Assembly (NCBI GenBank): GCA_024235615.1
Contig: JACKMB010000001.1
Coordinates: 310,001-374,000 of the forward strand
Direction: 5' to 3'
Origin: Thauera sp.
Lineage (GTDB): Bacteria; Pseudomonadota; Gammaproteobacteria; Burkholderiales; Rhodocyclaceae
Length of the DNA stretch: 64,000 nucleotides
A program made the translations under genes and the position numbers. The number at the start of each line of letters is the position of its first letter. The stretch's first letter is position 1. Shown here one piece after another: positions 13,413 to 61,893 of this stretch. Under the pieces are notes generated by a model that had not been told where the DNA came from, did not search any database, and was given only the letters and a program-made list of their open reading frames with translations.

Positions 13413-13426
13413 TTGACTTGCATCAA
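13413..13426 (+). promoter_or_regulatory. FNR/DNR-like box upstream of the hemerythrin operon
   Basis: TTGACTTGCATCAA matches the FNR/DNR consensus TTGAT-N4-ATCAA at 9 of 10 defined positions. Its centre is about 63 bases before the hemerythrin start, compatible with a class II (-41.5) site and a ~20-base leader. A box upstream of nirC shows the same TTGAC/ATCAA form. It lies in a divergent region and could also affect the MFS gene. Confidence 0.7.
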
Positions 13427-13482
13427 TGCCGTTTGTCGCCCCCTGCGGAGAATTCGGAACACCCGCCAGAGAGGAGACTCCG

Positions 13483-13941
13483 ATGAATACCATTTCCGAA
13501 CTCATGACCCACGACCACCGCGACTGTGACGGCATCTTCGCCCGCGCCGAGGAGCTCGCCTCCGACGGCGACTGGGCCGACGCGGCCGCCGCGCTGAAGA
13601 AATTCGCGGATGCGCTCAACGCCCACTTCGACGCCGAGGAGAGCACCCTCTTCCCGGCCTTCGAGCAGGCCACGGGCATGACCCAGGGCCCCACCATGGT
13701 GATGCGCCACGAACACCAGAACATGCGCGACACCCTGGCCGCCCTCCAGTACGCCCTCGACAAGCAGGACGCCGACGACTTCGCCGGCGAGGCCGAGACC
13801 CTGCTGATCATGATGCAGCAGCACAACATGAAGGAAGAAAGCGTGATCTACCCGATGCTCGACAGCCGCCTGCCCGGCGACGAGCAGGAGCGCCTGTCGG
13901 CCTCGGTGGGCAAGCACCTCGTGGAGGCCCGCGCAGCATGA
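13483..13941 (+). CDS. Hemerythrin-like di-iron protein
   Basis: A 152-aa HHE-type four-helix protein. Likely iron ligands: H10/H12 (THDHRD), H48 and E52 (HFDAEE), H76/H78 (RHEHQN), H114 and E118 (QQHNMKEE). It has no signal peptide, so it is cytoplasmic. Bacterial hemerythrins bind O2 or NO, and relatives help repair nitrosylated iron centres. GAGGAG lies about 8 bases before the ATG. With the FNR-like box upstream and two downstream genes overlapping by 4 bases each, it heads a three-gene anaerobic or nitrosative-stress operon. Confidence 0.88.
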   Translation: MNTISELMTHDHRDCDGIFARAEELASDGDWADAAAALKKFADALNAHFDAEESTLFPAFEQATGMTQGPTMVMRHEHQNMRDTLAALQYALDKQDADDFAGEAETLLIMMQQHNMKEESVIYPMLDSRLPGDEQERLSASVGKHLVEARAA

Positions 13942-14156
13942 GCGGACGTGTCGTCGATGCCCGCGGCCTGGAGCCGCCCGAGCCCTTCGAGCGCGCCATG
14001 GAAGGACTGATGGCCCTCGCCAAGGACGAGGAGATGCTGCTCATCCTCGATCGCATGCCGCACCCGCTGCTGCGCATCCTCGATCGCGACGGCTACGGCC
14101 ACACCGAAGCCTTCCGCGACGACGGCGCGGTCGAGATCCGGATTCGCCAGCGATGA
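13938..14156 (+). CDS. DUF2249 domain protein
   Basis: A 72-aa protein consisting of one DUF2249 domain: VVDARGLEPPEPFERAM and the PHPLLRILDRDGY block are typical. DUF2249 has a TusA/SirA-like fold and often occurs next to hemerythrins and denitrification genes; its biochemical role is not established. It lacks the TusA active cysteine. It overlaps both neighbours by ATGA, so all three products are probably made in step. Confidence 0.85.
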   Translation: MSGRVVDARGLEPPEPFERAMEGLMALAKDEEMLLILDRMPHPLLRILDRDGYGHTEAFRDDGAVEIRIRQR

Positions 14157-15451
14157 TGGGGCCGGGCCTCTCCTACGACGACACCCCGCCGTTCTCCGCT
14201 CCGGTCCGCTTCTTCCTCACCGCCCCGCTGTTCGGGGTGGTGGCAGGGCTGACGCTGCTCTTCGGCGGAGAGATCCTCGTCTCGCGGTGGACGCCCGGCG
14301 CGCTCGCCATCACGCACCTCTTCGCCGCCGGCTTCATGCTGCAGGTGATGCTCGGCGCGCTGCTGCAGGTCATGCCGGTGGTGGCGGGCGCGAGCATGCC
14401 CGCGCCGCTGCGCATTGCCGGCGTCACCCACGTGGCGATGACGCTCGGCACCGCCGGGCTCGCCTACGGGCTGGGTGCCGGCGCGCCCGATGTCCTGCTC
14501 GGCGGCGCCGTACTCCTCGTGGGCGGACTCTTCGTCTTCCTCTCCGCCGCTGCGCTCGGCCTCAGCCGCGGCGCACGCACCGGCAACAACACCCGCACCC
14601 CGCGCGACCTGCGCATGGCATTCGCCGGCCTCGTCGTCACCGCCGCGCTCGGCTTCAGCCTGGTGCTCGTGCTCACCCGCGGCCTCGCGCTGCCGGTGCC
14701 ACTGCCGACCGTGGTCAACCTGCACGCCGGCTGGGGCTGGATGGGCTGGGCCGCGGTACTGCTCGCCGCCGCGAGCTGGGTCGTGGTGCCGATGTTCCAG
14801 ATCACCGCGGCCTATCCGCAACGCTTCACCACGCTGTGGGCGCCGGCGGTCACCGCCACGCTCGTGTTGTGGACCCTCGCCGAATACTTCGCGATCGACA
14901 CCGCGCGCTTCATCGCCATCATCGCGCTCGGCCTGCTCGGCGCCGGCTACGCGGGCACCACGCTGTACCTGCAGGCGCACTCGCGCCGCAGCAAGCCCGA
15001 CACGCCCTTCCTCGCCTTCCGCGAGGCCATGTACGCGGCGCTCGCCGGCGTCCTCGTGCTGGTGATCTCGCTGTGGTCCGACGCCGACTGGTGGCCGATC
15101 CTCGCTGGCGTGCTGATCCTGCACGGCGGCTTCGGCGGCACCATCACCGCGATGCTCTACAAGATCGTGCCCTTCCTCGCCTGGCTGCACCTCACCCAGG
15201 CCGGGCTCAAGGCGCCGAACATGAAGAAGCTGCTGCCCGACACCCCGATCCGCCGCCAGCTCCGCGTGCGCAGCGCCAGCCTCGCCACGCTCTGCCTCGC
15301 GGTCTTCGTGCCGATCCTCGCCCCGGTTGCCGGCATCGTGCTGGCGGTCGAATTCGGCTGGCTCTTCGCCAACCTGCTGCGCGTGGTGCGTGCCCGCCGC
15401 GACGCAGCGAAGGCCGCCGTACCGCGCCCCGGAAGCCACGCCAGCACGTGA
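14153..15451 (+). CDS. Polytopic membrane protein of unknown function (NnrS / heme-copper oxidase subunit I-like layout)
   Basis: A 432-aa protein with roughly 12 predicted membrane helices. Histidines lie inside or at the ends of helices (ITHLFAAGFMLQVM, VTHVAMTLG, NLHAGWGWMGW, LHGGFGG, AWLHL), which suggests heme or metal binding, as in NnrS and heme-copper oxidase subunit I. It is not NnrS itself; a clear nnrS lies at 53170. It is the third gene of the hemerythrin-DUF2249 operon under an FNR-like box, so a role in NO or low-oxygen metabolism is inferred. Confidence 0.7.
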   Translation: MMGPGLSYDDTPPFSAPVRFFLTAPLFGVVAGLTLLFGGEILVSRWTPGALAITHLFAAGFMLQVMLGALLQVMPVVAGASMPAPLRIAGVTHVAMTLGTAGLAYGLGAGAPDVLLGGAVLLVGGLFVFLSAAALGLSRGARTGNNTRTPRDLRMAFAGLVVTAALGFSLVLVLTRGLALPVPLPTVVNLHAGWGWMGWAAVLLAAASWVVVPMFQITAAYPQRFTTLWAPAVTATLVLWTLAEYFAIDTARFIAIIALGLLGAGYAGTTLYLQAHSRRSKPDTPFLAFREAMYAALAGVLVLVISLWSDADWWPILAGVLILHGGFGGTITAMLYKIVPFLAWLHLTQAGLKAPNMKKLLPDTPIRRQLRVRSASLATLCLAVFVPILAPVAGIVLAVEFGWLFANLLRVVRARRDAAKAAVPRPGSHAST

Positions 15452-53169: not shown

Positions 53170-54357
53170 TCAGCCTTCCTTTCCGTCCACGCGGGCATAC
53201 CAGAGGTAGGGGGCGTAGCGCCACAGGTAGAGCAGGAACGCGATCGACCACAGCGTCGCCGCGGCATGCACGCCGCCCAACTGCGCAGCGGGGATGAAGG
53301 CCACGGTCAGCACCCGCACCAGCGCGGCCAGCAGCACCAGCGCGTAGGCGGCGGTCTCGATGCGCCCGGCGGTCAGCATGCGGCCGGTGTGGCCGAGCGC
53401 GGTGCGGGTGATCATGCCGATGATCAGCCCACCCGTGGCGCCGATGGCCAGCGCATGGATGCCGGCCGAGCGCGGCAGCACGCCGAACTGCGTCAGCGCG
53501 ACCAGCGCGAGGCCGAGCGGAATCCACAGGTAGGCCAGCTGCAGCACCCACAGGATGGGCTGGCTGCGCGTCGCCCACGGGTTCCAGCCGCCGAGCCGCA
53601 CCGCCTGCAGCGCCGCCGCGACCAACGACACCACGCCCGCCCAGGCGCCGGCGCCGAGCGCCCACAGCAGCAGCGCGATGCCGGTGGCGATCGCCGCCGC
53701 CCAGTCGAGCTTCACGTTGCGCCACTGCTTGACGCCGCGCACCGCGTTGAAGGTGAACATCGGGATGACGCGACCGCCGACGATGGTCTCGAGCACCACC
53801 ACCAGGCCGAGGGCCAGGTGCATCGCGGTCAGCGGGTCGGCCTCGATGACGCCGAGCACGGCGAGGTGGAAGAACAGGTTCGCGAGCGCCAGCATGGCGG
53901 GCAGCGCGCCGACGAAGTAGTTGCGCTTGCTCTTGGCCTTGATCAGCACCTTGAGCAGCATCCCCGCGGCCACCGGCAGGAAGGCGAGGTCCACGATCGC
54001 CACCCAGGCGCCGCTGCCGAAGGCCATCGCCAGGCGGCCGGCAAGCCAGACCGCGGCGAGCACCATCAGCGGCTTGTCCGTGGGCGTGTCGAGCCCGGTC
54101 CAGTTGCGCCCCGCGGTAAACAGGAAGCCGATGATCACCGCGATCGCGAAGCCGAAGATCATCTCGTGCGCATGCCACCAGATGCCCGGCATCGGCAGCT
54201 CGATCGCACCGGAGTAGGCCACCGCCCACACCGGCACGGCAATCGCGGCGAACAGCGCCGCGAGCAGGTAGAAGGGACGGAAGGCGAGCGCCCACAGCGA
54301 GAAGGTGTCGGGCGGGATGCGTTTGGTGGTCGGTTCGTCGAGGCGGATCAGCGCCAT
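53170..54357 (-). CDS. nnrS: NnrS family heme/copper membrane protein
   Basis: A 395-aa membrane protein with about 12 helices. Family blocks seen: FSLWALAFRPFYLLAALFA, WWHAHEMIFGFAIAVIIGFL, AGRNWTG, and GGRVIPMFTFNA. NnrS helps cells withstand nitric oxide during denitrification and may bind heme and copper. It follows nirN by 79 bases and is probably co-transcribed with the nir operon, though a separate promoter is possible. Convergent with cusS. Confidence 0.94.
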   Translation of the reverse strand: MALIRLDEPTTKRIPPDTFSLWALAFRPFYLLAALFAAIAVPVWAVAYSGAIELPMPGIWWHAHEMIFGFAIAVIIGFLFTAGRNWTGLDTPTDKPLMVLAAVWLAGRLAMAFGSGAWVAIVDLAFLPVAAGMLLKVLIKAKSKRNYFVGALPAMLALANLFFHLAVLGVIEADPLTAMHLALGLVVVLETIVGGRVIPMFTFNAVRGVKQWRNVKLDWAAAIATGIALLLWALGAGAWAGVVSLVAAALQAVRLGGWNPWATRSQPILWVLQLAYLWIPLGLALVALTQFGVLPRSAGIHALAIGATGGLIIGMITRTALGHTGRMLTAGRIETAAYALVLLAALVRVLTVAFIPAAQLGGVHAAATLWSIAFLLYLWRYAPYLWYARVDGKEG

Positions 54358-57424: not shown

Positions 57425-57994
57425 CTAGCCGCCGATCCGCAGCCCCGTCTTCTTGAGGATGCCGGACGAGAACAGCACGTCGCAGCCGCGGCAGGCACCG
57501 GGAAACTCCGCGGTGATCAGCGCCGCGATCTCTTCGACGCGTGCGAGCGCGGCCTCGCGGCTGGCGGCGTGCACCATGGCGAACAGGTTGTAGGGCCAGT
57601 CGGGCAGGTGGCGGGGGCGGCGGTAGCAGTGGGTGACGAAGTCGAGTCCGCCGACGCGCTCGCCGACCGCGTCGATCACGGCGGCATCGATGTCCCACAC
57701 GCTCATGCCGTTGGCGGTGTAGCCGATCGCGTAGTGGTTGGGCACCGCGCCGATGCGGCGGATGCGGCCGTCGGCGAGCATGGCGGCGAGGCGCTCGCGC
57801 ACCAGCCCCTCGGCTACGCCGAGCGTCTCGGCAACCGCGGCGTAGGGACGCGCCACCAGCGGCAGGCCGCCCTGGGTGGCGAGCACGATGCGGCGGTCGA
57901 GTTCGACGCGGGCAGCTTCATCGGCGCTCCTGGCCGCCTCGTCGCGGGCGTCGGCCCGCACGAGCGCTGCGTTATCCGGCATGTCTCTCGTCAT
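57425..57994 (-). CDS. nirH: Siroheme decarboxylase-family protein NirH
   Basis: A 189-aa Lrp/AsnC-like protein of the NirDLGH heme d1 family that decarboxylates siroheme to didecarboxysiroheme. It has a winged-helix start (AYAAVAETLGVAEGLVRERLAAM), the RRIGAVPNHYAIGY block, the HCYRRPRHLPDWPYNLFAMVH catalytic region and the tail GCDVLFSSGILKKTGLRI. Assigned NirH by order (nirDL-G-H). It overlaps nirG by 1 base (TGATG) and is separated from nirJ by 127 bases. Confidence 0.9.
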   Translation of the reverse strand: MTRDMPDNAALVRADARDEAARSADEAARVELDRRIVLATQGGLPLVARPYAAVAETLGVAEGLVRERLAAMLADGRIRRIGAVPNHYAIGYTANGMSVWDIDAAVIDAVGERVGGLDFVTHCYRRPRHLPDWPYNLFAMVHAASREAALARVEEIAALITAEFPGACRGCDVLFSSGILKKTGLRIGG

Positions 57995-58497
57995 CACGCC
58001 ACCAGCCTCATCTCGACGAAGTACTCGCGTTCCTTGGGGAACAGATGCACCACCAGCCCGGTCGCGGCCTCGATCCGGCGCGCGCAGTCGGCGATGCCTT
58101 CGGGCGTCTCGGTGGCGAGCACGAACCACATGTTGAGCGCATGCTCGCGGCGATAGTTGTGCGCCACCTCGGGGAAGGCGTTGACCGCCTCCACCGCGCT
58201 CGCCCACTGCGCCTCGGGCACCGCGATCGCGGCCAGGCAGAAGGCGCCGCCCATGCGCTCGATCTGGTACATCGGCCCGAAGCGCGTCAGCACGCGGTCG
58301 TCGAGAAGCGACTGCAGGCGCGCGATCACCTCGTCCTCGGACAGGCCGAGCGCGGCCCCGACCTCGGCAAAGGGGCGTTCCGAAAGCGGGAACTCGCCCT
58401 GGATGGCGTTGATCAGGCGGCGCTCGACCTCGTCGGGCGTACGCTTCGCGGCGACGCCGCGACGGCCGGCGACCGCGGCGGAATGGGCTTCAGACAT
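57994..58497 (-). CDS. nirG: Siroheme decarboxylase-family protein NirG
   Basis: A 167-aa member of the same Lrp-like family: winged-helix region (AEVGAALGLSEDEVIARLQSL), RFGPMYQIERMGG, the HNYRREHALNMWFVLAT motif, and the C-terminal HLFPKEREYFVEMRL. This C-terminus resembles NirD/NirG. The other three subunits are present as nirDL and nirH, so the full four-domain set is encoded. It overlaps nirDL by 8 bases and nirH by 1 base. Confidence 0.9.
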   Translation of the reverse strand: MSEAHSAAVAGRRGVAAKRTPDEVERRLINAIQGEFPLSERPFAEVGAALGLSEDEVIARLQSLLDDRVLTRFGPMYQIERMGGAFCLAAIAVPEAQWASAVEAVNAFPEVAHNYRREHALNMWFVLATETPEGIADCARRIEAATGLVVHLFPKEREYFVEMRLVA

Positions 58498-59539
58498 GGG
58501 CGAGGTCCTTGGCGCCGAGATAGCGTGCGCCGGTCTGCTTGAAGCGCCGGCAGCTGAACAGCACCGCATGCGGATGGCGGTCGAGGCCCAGACGCACGGC
58601 GAGGTCGTCGCGCGCGGCGAGCACCTCCTCGCGCGCGCTGCCGTGGATCATGCAGAACAGGTTGTAGGGCCAGTCGGGCAGCACGCGGCTGCGCCGGTAG
58701 CACAGCGTGACCGCGGCCTCCTGCGCGAGGCGGCGGCCGAGCGCGGAGACCTCGGCGTCGGGTACGTCCCACACGCACATCGCATTGGCCTCGAGGCCGA
58801 GCTCGTGGTGGCGCACGACCACGCCGAAGCGGCGGATCAGGCCTTCGTCCACCCAGCGCGCGATGCAGGAGATGACCGCATCCTCAGTGAGACCGACCCG
58901 CGCCGCCAGCGTGGCGAAGGGCCGCGCCTCCAGCGCCAGGCCACCCTGCAGCGCGCCGATCAACTGGCGTTCGACCGCCGGCAGCTCGCAGCCGCCGTCC
59001 GCGTTGCCGAGCGCGATCGGCTCGCCGGCGCGCGGGCCCGCGTGCGAGCGCCGCCCCGCCCCGCCCGCCTTGAGGTCGAAGCCGAGGTCGATGTGGAACT
59101 CTTCTTCCAGCGGCAGCACGATGACCGCGCAGCCGGTGTCGCGCTCGATGCCGGCGACCACCTCGTCGAGTTGCGCGCGCGAGGCCGCGGTGACCACGAA
59201 CCACAGGTTGTAGCGATGCTCGCGCTGGTAGTTGTGGTTGATCGCGGGTTCGCGCGTGACGCGCGCGGCGACCTCCTCCAGGCGCTCGGGCGGCGCGGCC
59301 AGCGCAGCCAGCGCGCTCGCGCCCAGGCGGCGCGGCGCGAACACCGCGCCCACCCGGCTCACCAGGCCTTGCGCGGCCAGGTCGCGGTAGGCCGCGATCA
59401 CGTCCTCCTCGGCGGCGCCCACCGCCTGCGCGATGCGCGCGAAGGGCCGCGGCTCGAGCGGGAAGTCGCGCTGCCACTCGTTGAGCAGGCGGAAGCCGGT
59501 GGCGTCGAGCGCCTCGGGCAGGATGGCCTGGCGCGGCAT
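58490..59539 (-). CDS. nirDL: Fused siroheme decarboxylase NirDL
   Basis: A 349-aa fusion of the NirD and NirL domains. N-terminal half: FARIAQAVGAAEEDVIAAYRDL, HNYQREHRYNLWFVVTA and VLPLEEEFHIDLGFDL (NirD-like). A linker (AGGAGRRSHAGPRAGEP) leads to the second half, with RFGVVVRHHELGLEANAMC, CYRRSRVLPDWPYNLFCMIH and the LFSCRRFKQTGARYLG tail (NirL-like). It decarboxylates siroheme in heme d1 synthesis. Stop-start TGATG with nirF. Confidence 0.93.
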   Translation of the reverse strand: MPRQAILPEALDATGFRLLNEWQRDFPLEPRPFARIAQAVGAAEEDVIAAYRDLAAQGLVSRVGAVFAPRRLGASALAALAAPPERLEEVAARVTREPAINHNYQREHRYNLWFVVTAASRAQLDEVVAGIERDTGCAVIVLPLEEEFHIDLGFDLKAGGAGRRSHAGPRAGEPIALGNADGGCELPAVERQLIGALQGGLALEARPFATLAARVGLTEDAVISCIARWVDEGLIRRFGVVVRHHELGLEANAMCVWDVPDAEVSALGRRLAQEAAVTLCYRRSRVLPDWPYNLFCMIHGSAREEVLAARDDLAVRLGLDRHPHAVLFSCRRFKQTGARYLGAKDLAHV

Positions 59540-60747
59540 CAGAAGCCCGTGCGCGCGGCGCGGGTGGTGAAGAAGATGCCGCTCGGGCTCGCCGAGTCGA
59601 AGCCGCCGATCTGCTGCTTGCTGGCGGTGTCGTAGATCACGACCTTGTTGTCGTCGCGCGCCGACAGCCAGATCTCGTGCCCCTTGGAGAGGAACTCCAT
59701 GTGCAGGATGCCGCGGCCCGGCTGCAGGGTGTCGGTGACCTTGCCGCTGACGGTGTCGATGACCTGCACCCAGCCATTGTCTGGGAAGGCGAAGTTCACC
59801 CAGATCTCGCGCCCGTCCGGACGCGCCATGGCGAACACCGGCTGGCTCTTGACCTTGATGCGATCGACCTCCTGCCAGGTGTCCGTGTCGACCACCAGCA
59901 CCTCGTGACGCCCGATCGCGGGCAGGTAGGCACGGTTTCCGGCGACCGACCAGCCGCGCAGGTGGGGCATCTTGAAGACCGGCAGGGGCTGCTCGCCGCG
60001 GCCGTAGCCGGAGAGGATCTTGCGGCTGCCCTTGTCGAGGTTCCACAGGTCGATCAGCGCCAGGCCATCTTCACCGAAGAGGCCGGCGATGTAGTAGCGG
60101 CCGTTGGGCGTGACCAGCGCGTCGTAAGGCTGCTTGCCGCCGGCGAAACGCTGGGTGACCGGCTTCCTGGGGTCGGAGAAGTCGGTGATGCGGATCTCGC
60201 CCGCCTCGAAGAGCGAGTAGATGAAGCGCTTGCCCGACAGGTCCGCCAGGCCCACCACCTTGGAGCGGGTGCCGTCCTCGGTGGTGGCGGGCACGTCGGC
60301 GACGAGTTCGAGCGTGTCGGCGTCGAAGGCCTTGATGCCGCCCGGCTCGTAGTTCTGCACCACCACCAGGCTGCCGTCGTGCGAGATCGAGCCGCCGATC
60401 GCGTTGCCCGCCTGCACCTTGCGGCCTACGATCCGACGCTCGAGCAGATCGACCTTGGTCAGCCCGCCGTCGCGGCCGAACACGAAGGCGTAGCGGCCAT
60501 CGCGCGAGAACACCACCGAGGCGTGGGAGAGATCGCCCAGGCCGGCCACCGTGGCGAGCACGCTGCGCCCGGTGGTCTCGATCACCTTCACCTTGCCGTC
60601 GGCGCGCTCGATCACCACGCCGAGGTCGCCGGTGCCGCGCAAGGCGGCAGGCGGCGTACTCGAACAGGCCGACAGCAGCACGACCATGGCGGAGAGGACC
60701 ACGCCCCACAGGGCGGGCGGTGCGAGTCGAACTTCACGGGAAGACAT
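59539..60747 (-). CDS. nirF: Heme d1 biosynthesis protein NirF, lipoprotein
   Basis: A 402-aa periplasmic d1-type beta-propeller. The N-terminus carries a lipoprotein signal with the lipobox LLSAC (Cys28), which fits membrane anchoring of NirF. Propeller blocks include VFSRDGRYAFVFGRDGGLTKVD and FKMPHLRGWSVAGNRAYLPAIGRHEVLVVD. NirF binds a heme d1 precursor and partners NirN. It overlaps nirDL by 1 base. Confidence 0.95.
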   Translation of the reverse strand: MSSREVRLAPPALWGVVLSAMVVLLSACSSTPPAALRGTGDLGVVIERADGKVKVIETTGRSVLATVAGLGDLSHASVVFSRDGRYAFVFGRDGGLTKVDLLERRIVGRKVQAGNAIGGSISHDGSLVVVQNYEPGGIKAFDADTLELVADVPATTEDGTRSKVVGLADLSGKRFIYSLFEAGEIRITDFSDPRKPVTQRFAGGKQPYDALVTPNGRYYIAGLFGEDGLALIDLWNLDKGSRKILSGYGRGEQPLPVFKMPHLRGWSVAGNRAYLPAIGRHEVLVVDTDTWQEVDRIKVKSQPVFAMARPDGREIWVNFAFPDNGWVQVIDTVSGKVTDTLQPGRGILHMEFLSKGHEIWLSARDDNKVVIYDTASKQQIGGFDSASPSGIFFTTRAARTGF

Positions 60748-60837: not shown

Positions 60838-61221
60838 TCAGTTGCGTGCGGCGGCCTGCGGCAGGCCGGCGTCGGCGGGGAAACCGCGCATCAGCCAGTA
60901 GACGATCCACTCGGCCTCGGCCTCGGACAGGATGGTCTGGAAGGGCGGCATCGGCGTGCCCGGGCGGCCGCCGACAATGGTGGCCACGAGCCCTTCGGCC
61001 GGCTTGTCGGCCAGGGCCTCGGCCGTCAGCGCGGGCCCGAGCCCGCCCTTGAAAGTCAGGCCGTGGCAGGAGCCACAGTCCTGGCGGACGATGTGGATCA
61101 GTTCGCGCGCGCGCGCCGGATCGGGTTCGACGGGTGCGCGCTCGGATGCCGCGGCATAGGCGGAGACGAGCGCAGCGCCGAGGAGGACCACGGCGTGGGC
61201 GAGGAGTGGCGGAATCTTCAT
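60838..61221 (-). CDS. nirC: Cytochrome c55X-type protein NirC
   Basis: A 127-aa small periplasmic monoheme cytochrome: signal peptide (LLAHAVVLLGAALVSAYAAA) and C49-G-S-C-H53 heme site, axial Met likely in GTPMPPF. NirC can donate electrons to NirS and helps in heme d1 maturation. It is the first gene of a second nir transcription unit: an FNR-like box lies 58 bases upstream. Confidence 0.93.
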   Translation of the reverse strand: MKIPPLLAHAVVLLGAALVSAYAAASERAPVEPDPARARELIHIVRQDCGSCHGLTFKGGLGPALTAEALADKPAEGLVATIVGGRPGTPMPPFQTILSEAEAEWIVYWLMRGFPADAGLPQAAARN

Positions 61222-61279: not shown

Positions 61280-61293
61280 TTGACTCGAATCAA
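61280..61293 (-). promoter_or_regulatory. FNR/DNR-like box upstream of nirC
   Basis: Read on the plus strand TTGACTCGAATCAA (on the minus strand TTGATTCGAGTCAA), a 9-of-10 match to TTGAT-N4-ATCAA. Its centre lies 65 bases before the nirC start. A downstream transcription start at +41.5 would give a short leader, so nirC-F-DL-G-H-J-N is likely its own anaerobic operon. Confidence 0.72.
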
Positions 61294-61424: not shown

Positions 61425-61754
61425 TCAGTCCTCTACGATCACCACCCCGAGCATTTCCGGATGCGGGCCGCAGCGGTACTCGAAGCGCCCCGCTTCCGGG
61501 AAGGCGCGCGACCACTTCTCACCGGGAAAGAAGCGCTCGGACTCCTCGCTGCGCCCGATCATCAGCACCGAGTGGCTCACCCGCTTCTCGTTGTTCACCC
61601 AGGTCACGGTGTCGCCGCGCTTGATGCGCAACTCCATCGGTGCGAAGGCATACTTCTCCACGATGACCTGATGCTCTGCAGCCAAAGCAGGACTGCCGCC
61701 AGCGAACGAAAAGGCGGCGGCAAGCAGGCAGGCGGGGGCGAATCTCGCATTCAT
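61425..61754 (-). CDS. Amicyanin-like cupredoxin
   Basis: A 109-aa periplasmic type I copper protein. Signal peptide MNARFAPACLLAAAFSFAGGSPALA, then a single cupredoxin domain. Copper ligands: His in VSHSV, then C-G-P-H-P-E-M (Cys, His, Met with C-X2-H-X2-M spacing as in amicyanin). It sits between nirB and nirC and could shuttle electrons to nitrite or nitrous oxide reduction. GGAG lies 6 bases before ATG 61754. Confidence 0.85.
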   Translation of the reverse strand: MNARFAPACLLAAAFSFAGGSPALAAEHQVIVEKYAFAPMELRIKRGDTVTWVNNEKRVSHSVLMIGRSEESERFFPGEKWSRAFPEAGRFEYRCGPHPEMLGVVIVED

Positions 61755-61791
61755 CGACATCTCCGTTTCAGGCACAGGCGACCGCAAGGTC

Positions 61792-61852
61792 GCGATGGAT
61801 CCATCGCAAATGACAACGGCGGAAGCCCCGGGTTCGCCGGATGCTTCCGCCG
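61792..61852. other. Palindrome and long inverted repeat between nirB and the cupredoxin gene
   Basis: Two structures share the 139-base gap. GCGATGGATCCATCGC at 61792-61807 is a perfect 16-bp palindrome. A 10-bp stem CGGCGGAAGC / GCTTCCGCCG (61817-61826 and 61843-61852) follows, with a 16-base loop. No T-run follows on the transcribed minus strand, so termination is doubtful; RNA processing or protein binding is possible. Confidence 0.6.
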
Positions 61853-61893
61853 TATCGAACACCGCCCGGGAGCGCGGGCGGGATCAGGTCGGG

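Follow-up and report, generated by a model that had tools for sequence, protein, structure and literature searches.

What NnrS-like membrane proteins and DUF2249 proteins do is still poorly understood. The catalytic members of the heme-copper oxidase superfamily carry six metal-binding histidines, and the sulfur carriers of the TusA type have a catalytic cysteine in a CPxP motif. The HCOH proteins of Pei et al. 2014 are reportedly 12-helix oxidase homologues, NnrS among them, many of which have two conserved histidines and are linked to denitrification. This study is also cited in PMC10790758 and in PMC11218638; the latter links DUF2249 to the oxidase superfamily on the basis of that study, links it to hemerythrins as well, and describes its function as unknown. 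Thermus no longer grows on nitrate once DrpB and the DUF2249 protein DrpA have both been lost (PMC6282519), and haloarchaeal DUF2249 proteins are tied to nitrate respiration as well (PMC11218638). The regulation of NnrS is treated in PMC1274295 and PMC8175989, and in the second paper the Vibrio NnrS gene is NO-responsive and its product is called an NO detoxification protein. Among the proteins of the RIC type (RIC, YtfE, DnrN, NorA), the residues that bind the di-iron centre are given for YtfE in PMC9268430, and NorA is described as a putative NO-binding protein that acts beside the NO reductase NorB (PMC9045102).

Here, we consider a unit of three genes, P1-P2-P3, in a 64-kb stretch of DNA (the window, meaning the whole stretch analysed) from a 4.0-Mb genome. 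For this locus, the closest named record is Thauera phenylacetica B4P, in which the counterpart of P3 is 98% identical. The unit probably protects nitrite-respiring bacteria against NO, under the control of an FNR-type regulator. No description of the unit, its box or its linkage to norB and nirS was found in the literature searched (titles and the starts of abstracts). The terms “DUF2249” and “hemerythrin” were found together only in PMC11218638 and PMC6282519, and searches within PMC9765128, PMC13086519 and PMC6710368 returned no mention of hemerythrin. With three genes in a fixed arrangement behind a conserved regulatory box, often near norB and nirS, it provides a defined set of partners for study. 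It bears on how denitrifiers such as Thauera, Azoarcus, Dechloromonas and Accumulibacter, which are of importance in N2O release and in the treatment of wastewater, tolerate their own NO.

The unit, its upstream box and its neighbourhood

P1 is a hemerythrin-fold di-iron protein of 152 aa (13483-13941, + strand; PF01814, E 4e-25). P2 is a DUF2249 protein of 72 aa that is related to TusA and lacks the TusA cysteine (13938-14156, +; PF10006, E 3.5e-18), and P3 is a 432-aa, 12-helix membrane protein to which a heme-copper oxidase fold can be assigned by AlphaFold and Foldseek, and a remote relationship to NnrS by hhalign (14153-15451, +). The P1/P2 and P2/P3 junctions both read ATGA, with an overlap of 4 bases. 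An FNR/DNR-type box, TTGACTTGCATCAA (13413-13426, +), is centred 63 nt upstream of the P1 start, and no promoter-like site was found nearby in a sigma-70 scan around it. Three tRNA genes lie downstream of P3. The first-pass annotation had described a three-gene unit with 4-base overlaps at 13413-15451, headed by an FNR/DNR-type site of the same variant form as the nirC box. The coordinates agree with this layout, the site is an exact match that is kept upstream of P1 in relatives, and the form is indeed shared: exact matches to TTGAYNNNNRTCAA occur twice in the 64-kb window, compared with 0.03 expected from shuffles, and the other one stands before a nirC-like ORF. With one mismatch, five sites were counted and 1.47 were expected. 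The second exact site, the palindromic TTGACTCGAATCAA (61280-61293, +), which serves here for comparison, precedes by about 65 bases the likely start codon (ATG at 61221, read by eye) of an ORF on the minus strand that has a CGSCH heme motif and fits nirC. The nir cluster is about 38 kb from P1-P2-P3 and includes an NnrS gene (53170-54348, −; PF05940, E 4e-113), which adjoins a cytochrome-d1-domain gene. A second NnrS gene is found outside the window, in the same genome (C2:530162-531409).

The conservation of the unit was read from 149 loci that carry a P3 ORF. They comprise the window, 79 of 80 named loci and 69 others, and many are near-duplicates. With these included, 139 loci have P1 directly 5' of P3, and both P1 and P2 are upstream of P3 in 122 of the first 129. 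Of the ten loci that lack an upstream P1, three (L075, L086 and L116) lie near the end of a contig, and two (L183 and L184) have DUF2249 before P3 and a hemerythrin after it. In L174, L176 and L180, P1 adjoins P3 and no P2 was detected. In two others of the ten, a DUF2249 protein, with two domains by eye, directly follows P3 rather than preceding it (L185, 8304-8849; L186, 6382-6912); both genomes have a distant NorB match a few kb away. A small membrane protein of the SirB family is encoded 3' of P3 on the same strand in 41 loci (e.g., L087:11290-11664). In 25 of these 41, its domain starts 3 nt past the P3 stop, and this spacing suggests that the operon of other Rhodocyclaceae has a fourth gene, in the place that is taken by tRNA genes in the window. 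A tblastn search of a plasmid collection at E 1e-5 gave no plasmid-borne annotated homologues. An anti-phage defence role of the unit was ruled out, as PADLOC gave no match.

The box is conserved together with the genes. Upstream of P1, 97 of 124 loci have an exact box and 112 have a box that is exact or differs at a single base, compared with 3.5% and 6.5%, respectively, of random windows from the same loci, which may include true sites. When near-duplicates were removed by thinning to less than 60% P3 identity (n = 52), the box was exact in 30 loci and had at most one mismatch in 42, and 35 of these 42 were also 55-75 bases before P1. Shuffles gave 0.4% and 2.2%, respectively. The position about 63 bases before P1 is thus retained in distant relatives. 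The four central bases vary while the half-sites are kept, which is the pattern expected of a binding site. At the level of sequence, the unit has the conserved upstream site of an FNR/DNR regulon member. In Accumulibacter UW-LDO-IC, a gene called “hemerythrin” has been reported in clusters that carry FNR motifs and show increased transcript levels in the anaerobic stage; these clusters also hold nar, nos, nirS-1, cco, hemN and uspA (PMC6446978). Near the Accumulibacter units in our set, there are genes of the hemN type (L078, L089, L096, L099), of the usp type (L078, L089, L090, L099) and for P-type ATPases (L089, L096, L099). These neighbours suit a tentative identification of the published “hemerythrin” as P1.

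The same neighbourhood can be read differently, with the unit handling O2 under microoxic conditions: P1 would store or sense O2, and P3 would sense or relay it, in the service of the cbb3 oxidase at the oxic-anoxic switch. We regard this as unlikely. An FNR-type box is consistent with it, and so is the company of the unit, since in 100 clustered loci hemN was nearby in 22, a DsbD-like gene in 18, a P-type ATPase gene in 12 and Usp in 33. Two more types were present in 23 loci each, a metallo-lactamase of the ODP family and a protein whose weak MCP match is below the cut-off. Many loci of the Dechloromonas/Accumulibacter type have cco-assembly-like, hemN and ODP genes nearby. The proteins themselves and their linkage to denitrification genes, considered below, also bear on this reading. 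The ODP-family and MCP-match genes precede P1 on the same strand (e.g., L088:8480-9220 and L032:7817-8443).

Relationships of the three proteins

P1 shares its set of di-iron ligands with the RIC-type proteins. Among its relatives, H12 is found in 124 of 125 sequences, and H48, E52, H78, H114 and E118 are found in all 125 (the numbering of that alignment is higher by 19). P1 H48, E52, E77 and H78 align residue by residue with YtfE H129, E133, E159 and H160, so that the Glu before the third His is shared, and H12, H114 and E118 fit YtfE H84, H204 and E208 by spacing only. The four His and two bridging Glu of RIC are therefore present in P1, with three of the six matched by spacing only. In a profile search of the PDB, the best match was YtfE (E 8e-10), whereas the hemerythrin-like domain of DcrH reached only 0.01, which speaks against the handling of O2. 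On the other hand, P1 differs from described RIC proteins in several respects: it scores 34.6 bits with the RIC model TIGR03652, far below the NCBIfam cut-off of 204.7; the N-terminal ScdA domain is absent among its Pfam matches; and Ala occupies the position of the second-sphere Glu125. It is nevertheless the sole match to the RIC model in its own genome at E<=0.001. AlphaFold models P1 with high confidence as a bundle of helices (pLDDT 96.4). A fold search with this model gave no matches at E<=0.001 and YtfE was absent among the best 50 listed; the best rows were PF0695, FBXL5 and NMB1532. The presence of the FBXL5 hemerythrin domain among them would suit O2 handling. Since the fold search is undecided between hemerythrin types, the RIC assignment rests on sequence. 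There is no evident signal peptide, so P1 is probably cytoplasmic.

P2 belongs to DUF2249 (PF10006, 65.6 bits vs. a gathering score of 29.5) and also matches TusA (PF01206) at 29.4 bits, just above the cut-off of 28.6. In 120 of 122 P2 sequences, Pro stands at the position of the TusA cysteine, and no His or Cys is conserved at 90% in the P2 alignment. Sulfur transfer by P2 was ruled out, as the Cys is absent. The histidines also set P2 apart from DrpA and one of four Haloferax proteins, which conserve them according to PMC11218638. P2 further differs from DrpA and DrpB in that it travels with P1 and P3.

These two proteins raise the possibility that the unit is an assembly factor, which would deliver iron, heme or metal to nitrite and NO reductases instead of handling NO. 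The resemblance of P1 to RIC, for which iron donation has been proposed (PMC9268430), points in this direction, as do the TusA relationship of P2, the nitrate phenotype of Thermus after the loss of DrpA and DrpB (PMC6282519) and the proximity of some loci to nir and nor genes. We consider such a role quite improbable. P2 has no sulfur-carrier Cys; 14 genomes have nirS and no P3; and the unit is found within 10 kb of the heme-type nirS (10 genomes) and of the copper-type nirK (3 genomes) alike, so no single cofactor fits.

P3 has no match in Pfam or NCBIfam at E<=1. Its AlphaFold model has 12 long helices (pLDDT 94.6, pTM 0.93), and all 36 matches of this model in the PDB at E<=0.001 by Foldseek are oxidase or NO reductase entries. 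The predicted structure thus has the 12-helix catalytic-subunit fold of the heme-copper oxidase superfamily, shared with CcoN, CoxA and NorB. The best matches are cbb3 entries (TMq 0.67-0.72), which would be in keeping with a role in O2 handling. In contrast to the six metal-binding histidines of the catalytic members, only two are invariant in P3. Four columns of its alignment have His in at least 70% of the sequences: H55 (helix 2) and H191 (helix 6) in 129/129, H346 in 116/129 and H93 in 104/129. Too few His are conserved for P3 to be a genuine oxidase or NO reductase, and this reading was rejected. Profile similarity to CcoN, CoxA and NorB was not significant even with 129 P3 sequences. 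The same result with shallow profiles says little, since these also miss the relationship between NnrS and CcoN. Against solved structures, P3 as a single sequence gave three matches with E 0.4-1, none of them convincing, and its profile gave none. When the thirds of P3 were compared with each other, the alignments were weak (E 0.0007-0.006), and H55 aligned with H191 (first vs. second third). This suits a placement of the two histidines at equivalent positions in the thirds, and the alignment is not significant proof of it.

The relationship of P3 to NnrS is remote. The comparison of 129 P3 with 33 NnrS sequences by hhalign gave a probability of 89% and an E-value of 2.3e-6 over 250 columns, which indicates profile homology; with shallower profiles, E was only 0.027. 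P3 itself does not match the Pfam NnrS model (cut-off 28 bits) at E<=1, one weak match (E 0.0043) was obtained among 78 P3 homologues, and the P3 profile found nothing in the window's NnrS as a single sequence. The histidine patterns differ. In NnrS, H42 and H281 occur in 33/33 sequences, H281 being outside the 250 aligned columns and placed on helix 10 by eye. The P3 position matched to it by eye, H324, is His in only 36/129, so P3 has its own pair on helices 2 and 6 in place of the NnrS pair on helices 2 and 10. The first-pass annotation had described a protein of about 12 helices with intramembrane histidines and no named function, distinct from NnrS. The modelled helices, the invariant H55 and H191 and the database searches agree with the description. 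The distinctness from NnrS stands in the sense of a separate gene family with a different histidine pattern, and it has to be qualified by remote homology. The membrane-protein family of P3 is widespread; none of 78 members has a clear match in Pfam, and the window's P3 has none in NCBIfam. The family may already be among the HCOH families of Pei et al. 2014.

Linkage to denitrification and a possible mechanism

By sequence search, relatives of P3 were found in 78 of 121 near genomes, including 29/29 of the genus. A profile search of 200 genomes, sampled evenly across the order, found P3 in 57, one of which (G118) has only a 119-residue match. These 57 genomes and the 143 without P3 formed the sample for co-occurrence, which the first-pass annotation had set as a test of a denitrification-linked role. 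The gene nirS was found in 39/57 genomes with P3 vs. 14/143 without it, nirS or nirK in 46/57 vs. 30/143 (Fisher 7e-15), norB in 38/57 vs. 20/143 (7e-13) and NnrS in 54/57 vs. 52/143. No association was seen for nirK alone (7/57 vs. 16/143, p 0.81). In seven of the 57 genomes, G118 among them, nirS, nirK and norB were all absent at the thresholds used. The unrelated control nifH was also enriched (18/57 vs. 12/143, p 1e-4), so shared ancestry explains part of the co-occurrence of P3.

Physical linkage is harder than co-occurrence to explain by relatedness. Among the 57 genomes, P3 lies within 10 kb of norB in 17, nirS in 10, nirK in 3 and NnrS in 12; at least one of the four is this close in 29 and one of norB, nirS and nirK in 22. 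By our own arithmetic, four random markers in a genome of 3-4 Mb would give about 2-3%. The link to denitrification is therefore supported by the enrichment of nirS and norB, by the linkage within 10 kb and by the conserved box. The proposal of denitrification-linked NO or O2 handling is thus borne out in part: the link to denitrification holds, and the handling of either gas is putative. The same linkage, together with the distribution of nirS, argues against O2 handling. NO appears favoured over O2 by the proximity of norB and NnrS and by the RIC-type ligands predicted for P1.

If the unit protects against NO, as we think probable, its action might proceed as follows. When O2 is exhausted, an FNR/DNR-type activator would bind the box and turn on the unit together with the nir genes. 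P1, as a RIC-like protein, would take up NO and/or protect or refill iron centres damaged by NO, and it would replace the canonical RIC, which was not found in this genome. P3 probably holds one b-type heme on its two invariant His; at the membrane, it may capture or relay NO or electrons. P2, which has no conserved Cys or His, would be a probable docking adaptor between P1 and P3. A more specific proposal, which we put forward as doubtful, sees P3 as a separate branch of the oxidase superfamily that carries only one heme, placed between helices 2 and 6. With the soluble, RIC-like P1, it would make up an NO-handling complex in which P3 is the membrane-bound part, and this complex would take the place of the canonical RIC in bacteria that respire nitrite. 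If one heme is shared by H55 and H191, it would lie between these two helices, in the pore that holds no cofactor in oxidases and NO reductases. NorA beside NorB (PMC9045102) offers a precedent, in which a putative NO-binding protein of the RIC type acts together with an NO reductase.

The nir region of the window has further features. Between the nirC-like ORF and nirS, there is a small ORF (61425-61862, −) that is cupredoxin-like by eye and may encode an electron donor. Domains similar to those of the siroheme decarboxylase NirDL were also found, two in an ORF of 518 aa (58493-60046, −) and one in the neighbouring ORF (57428-58207, −).
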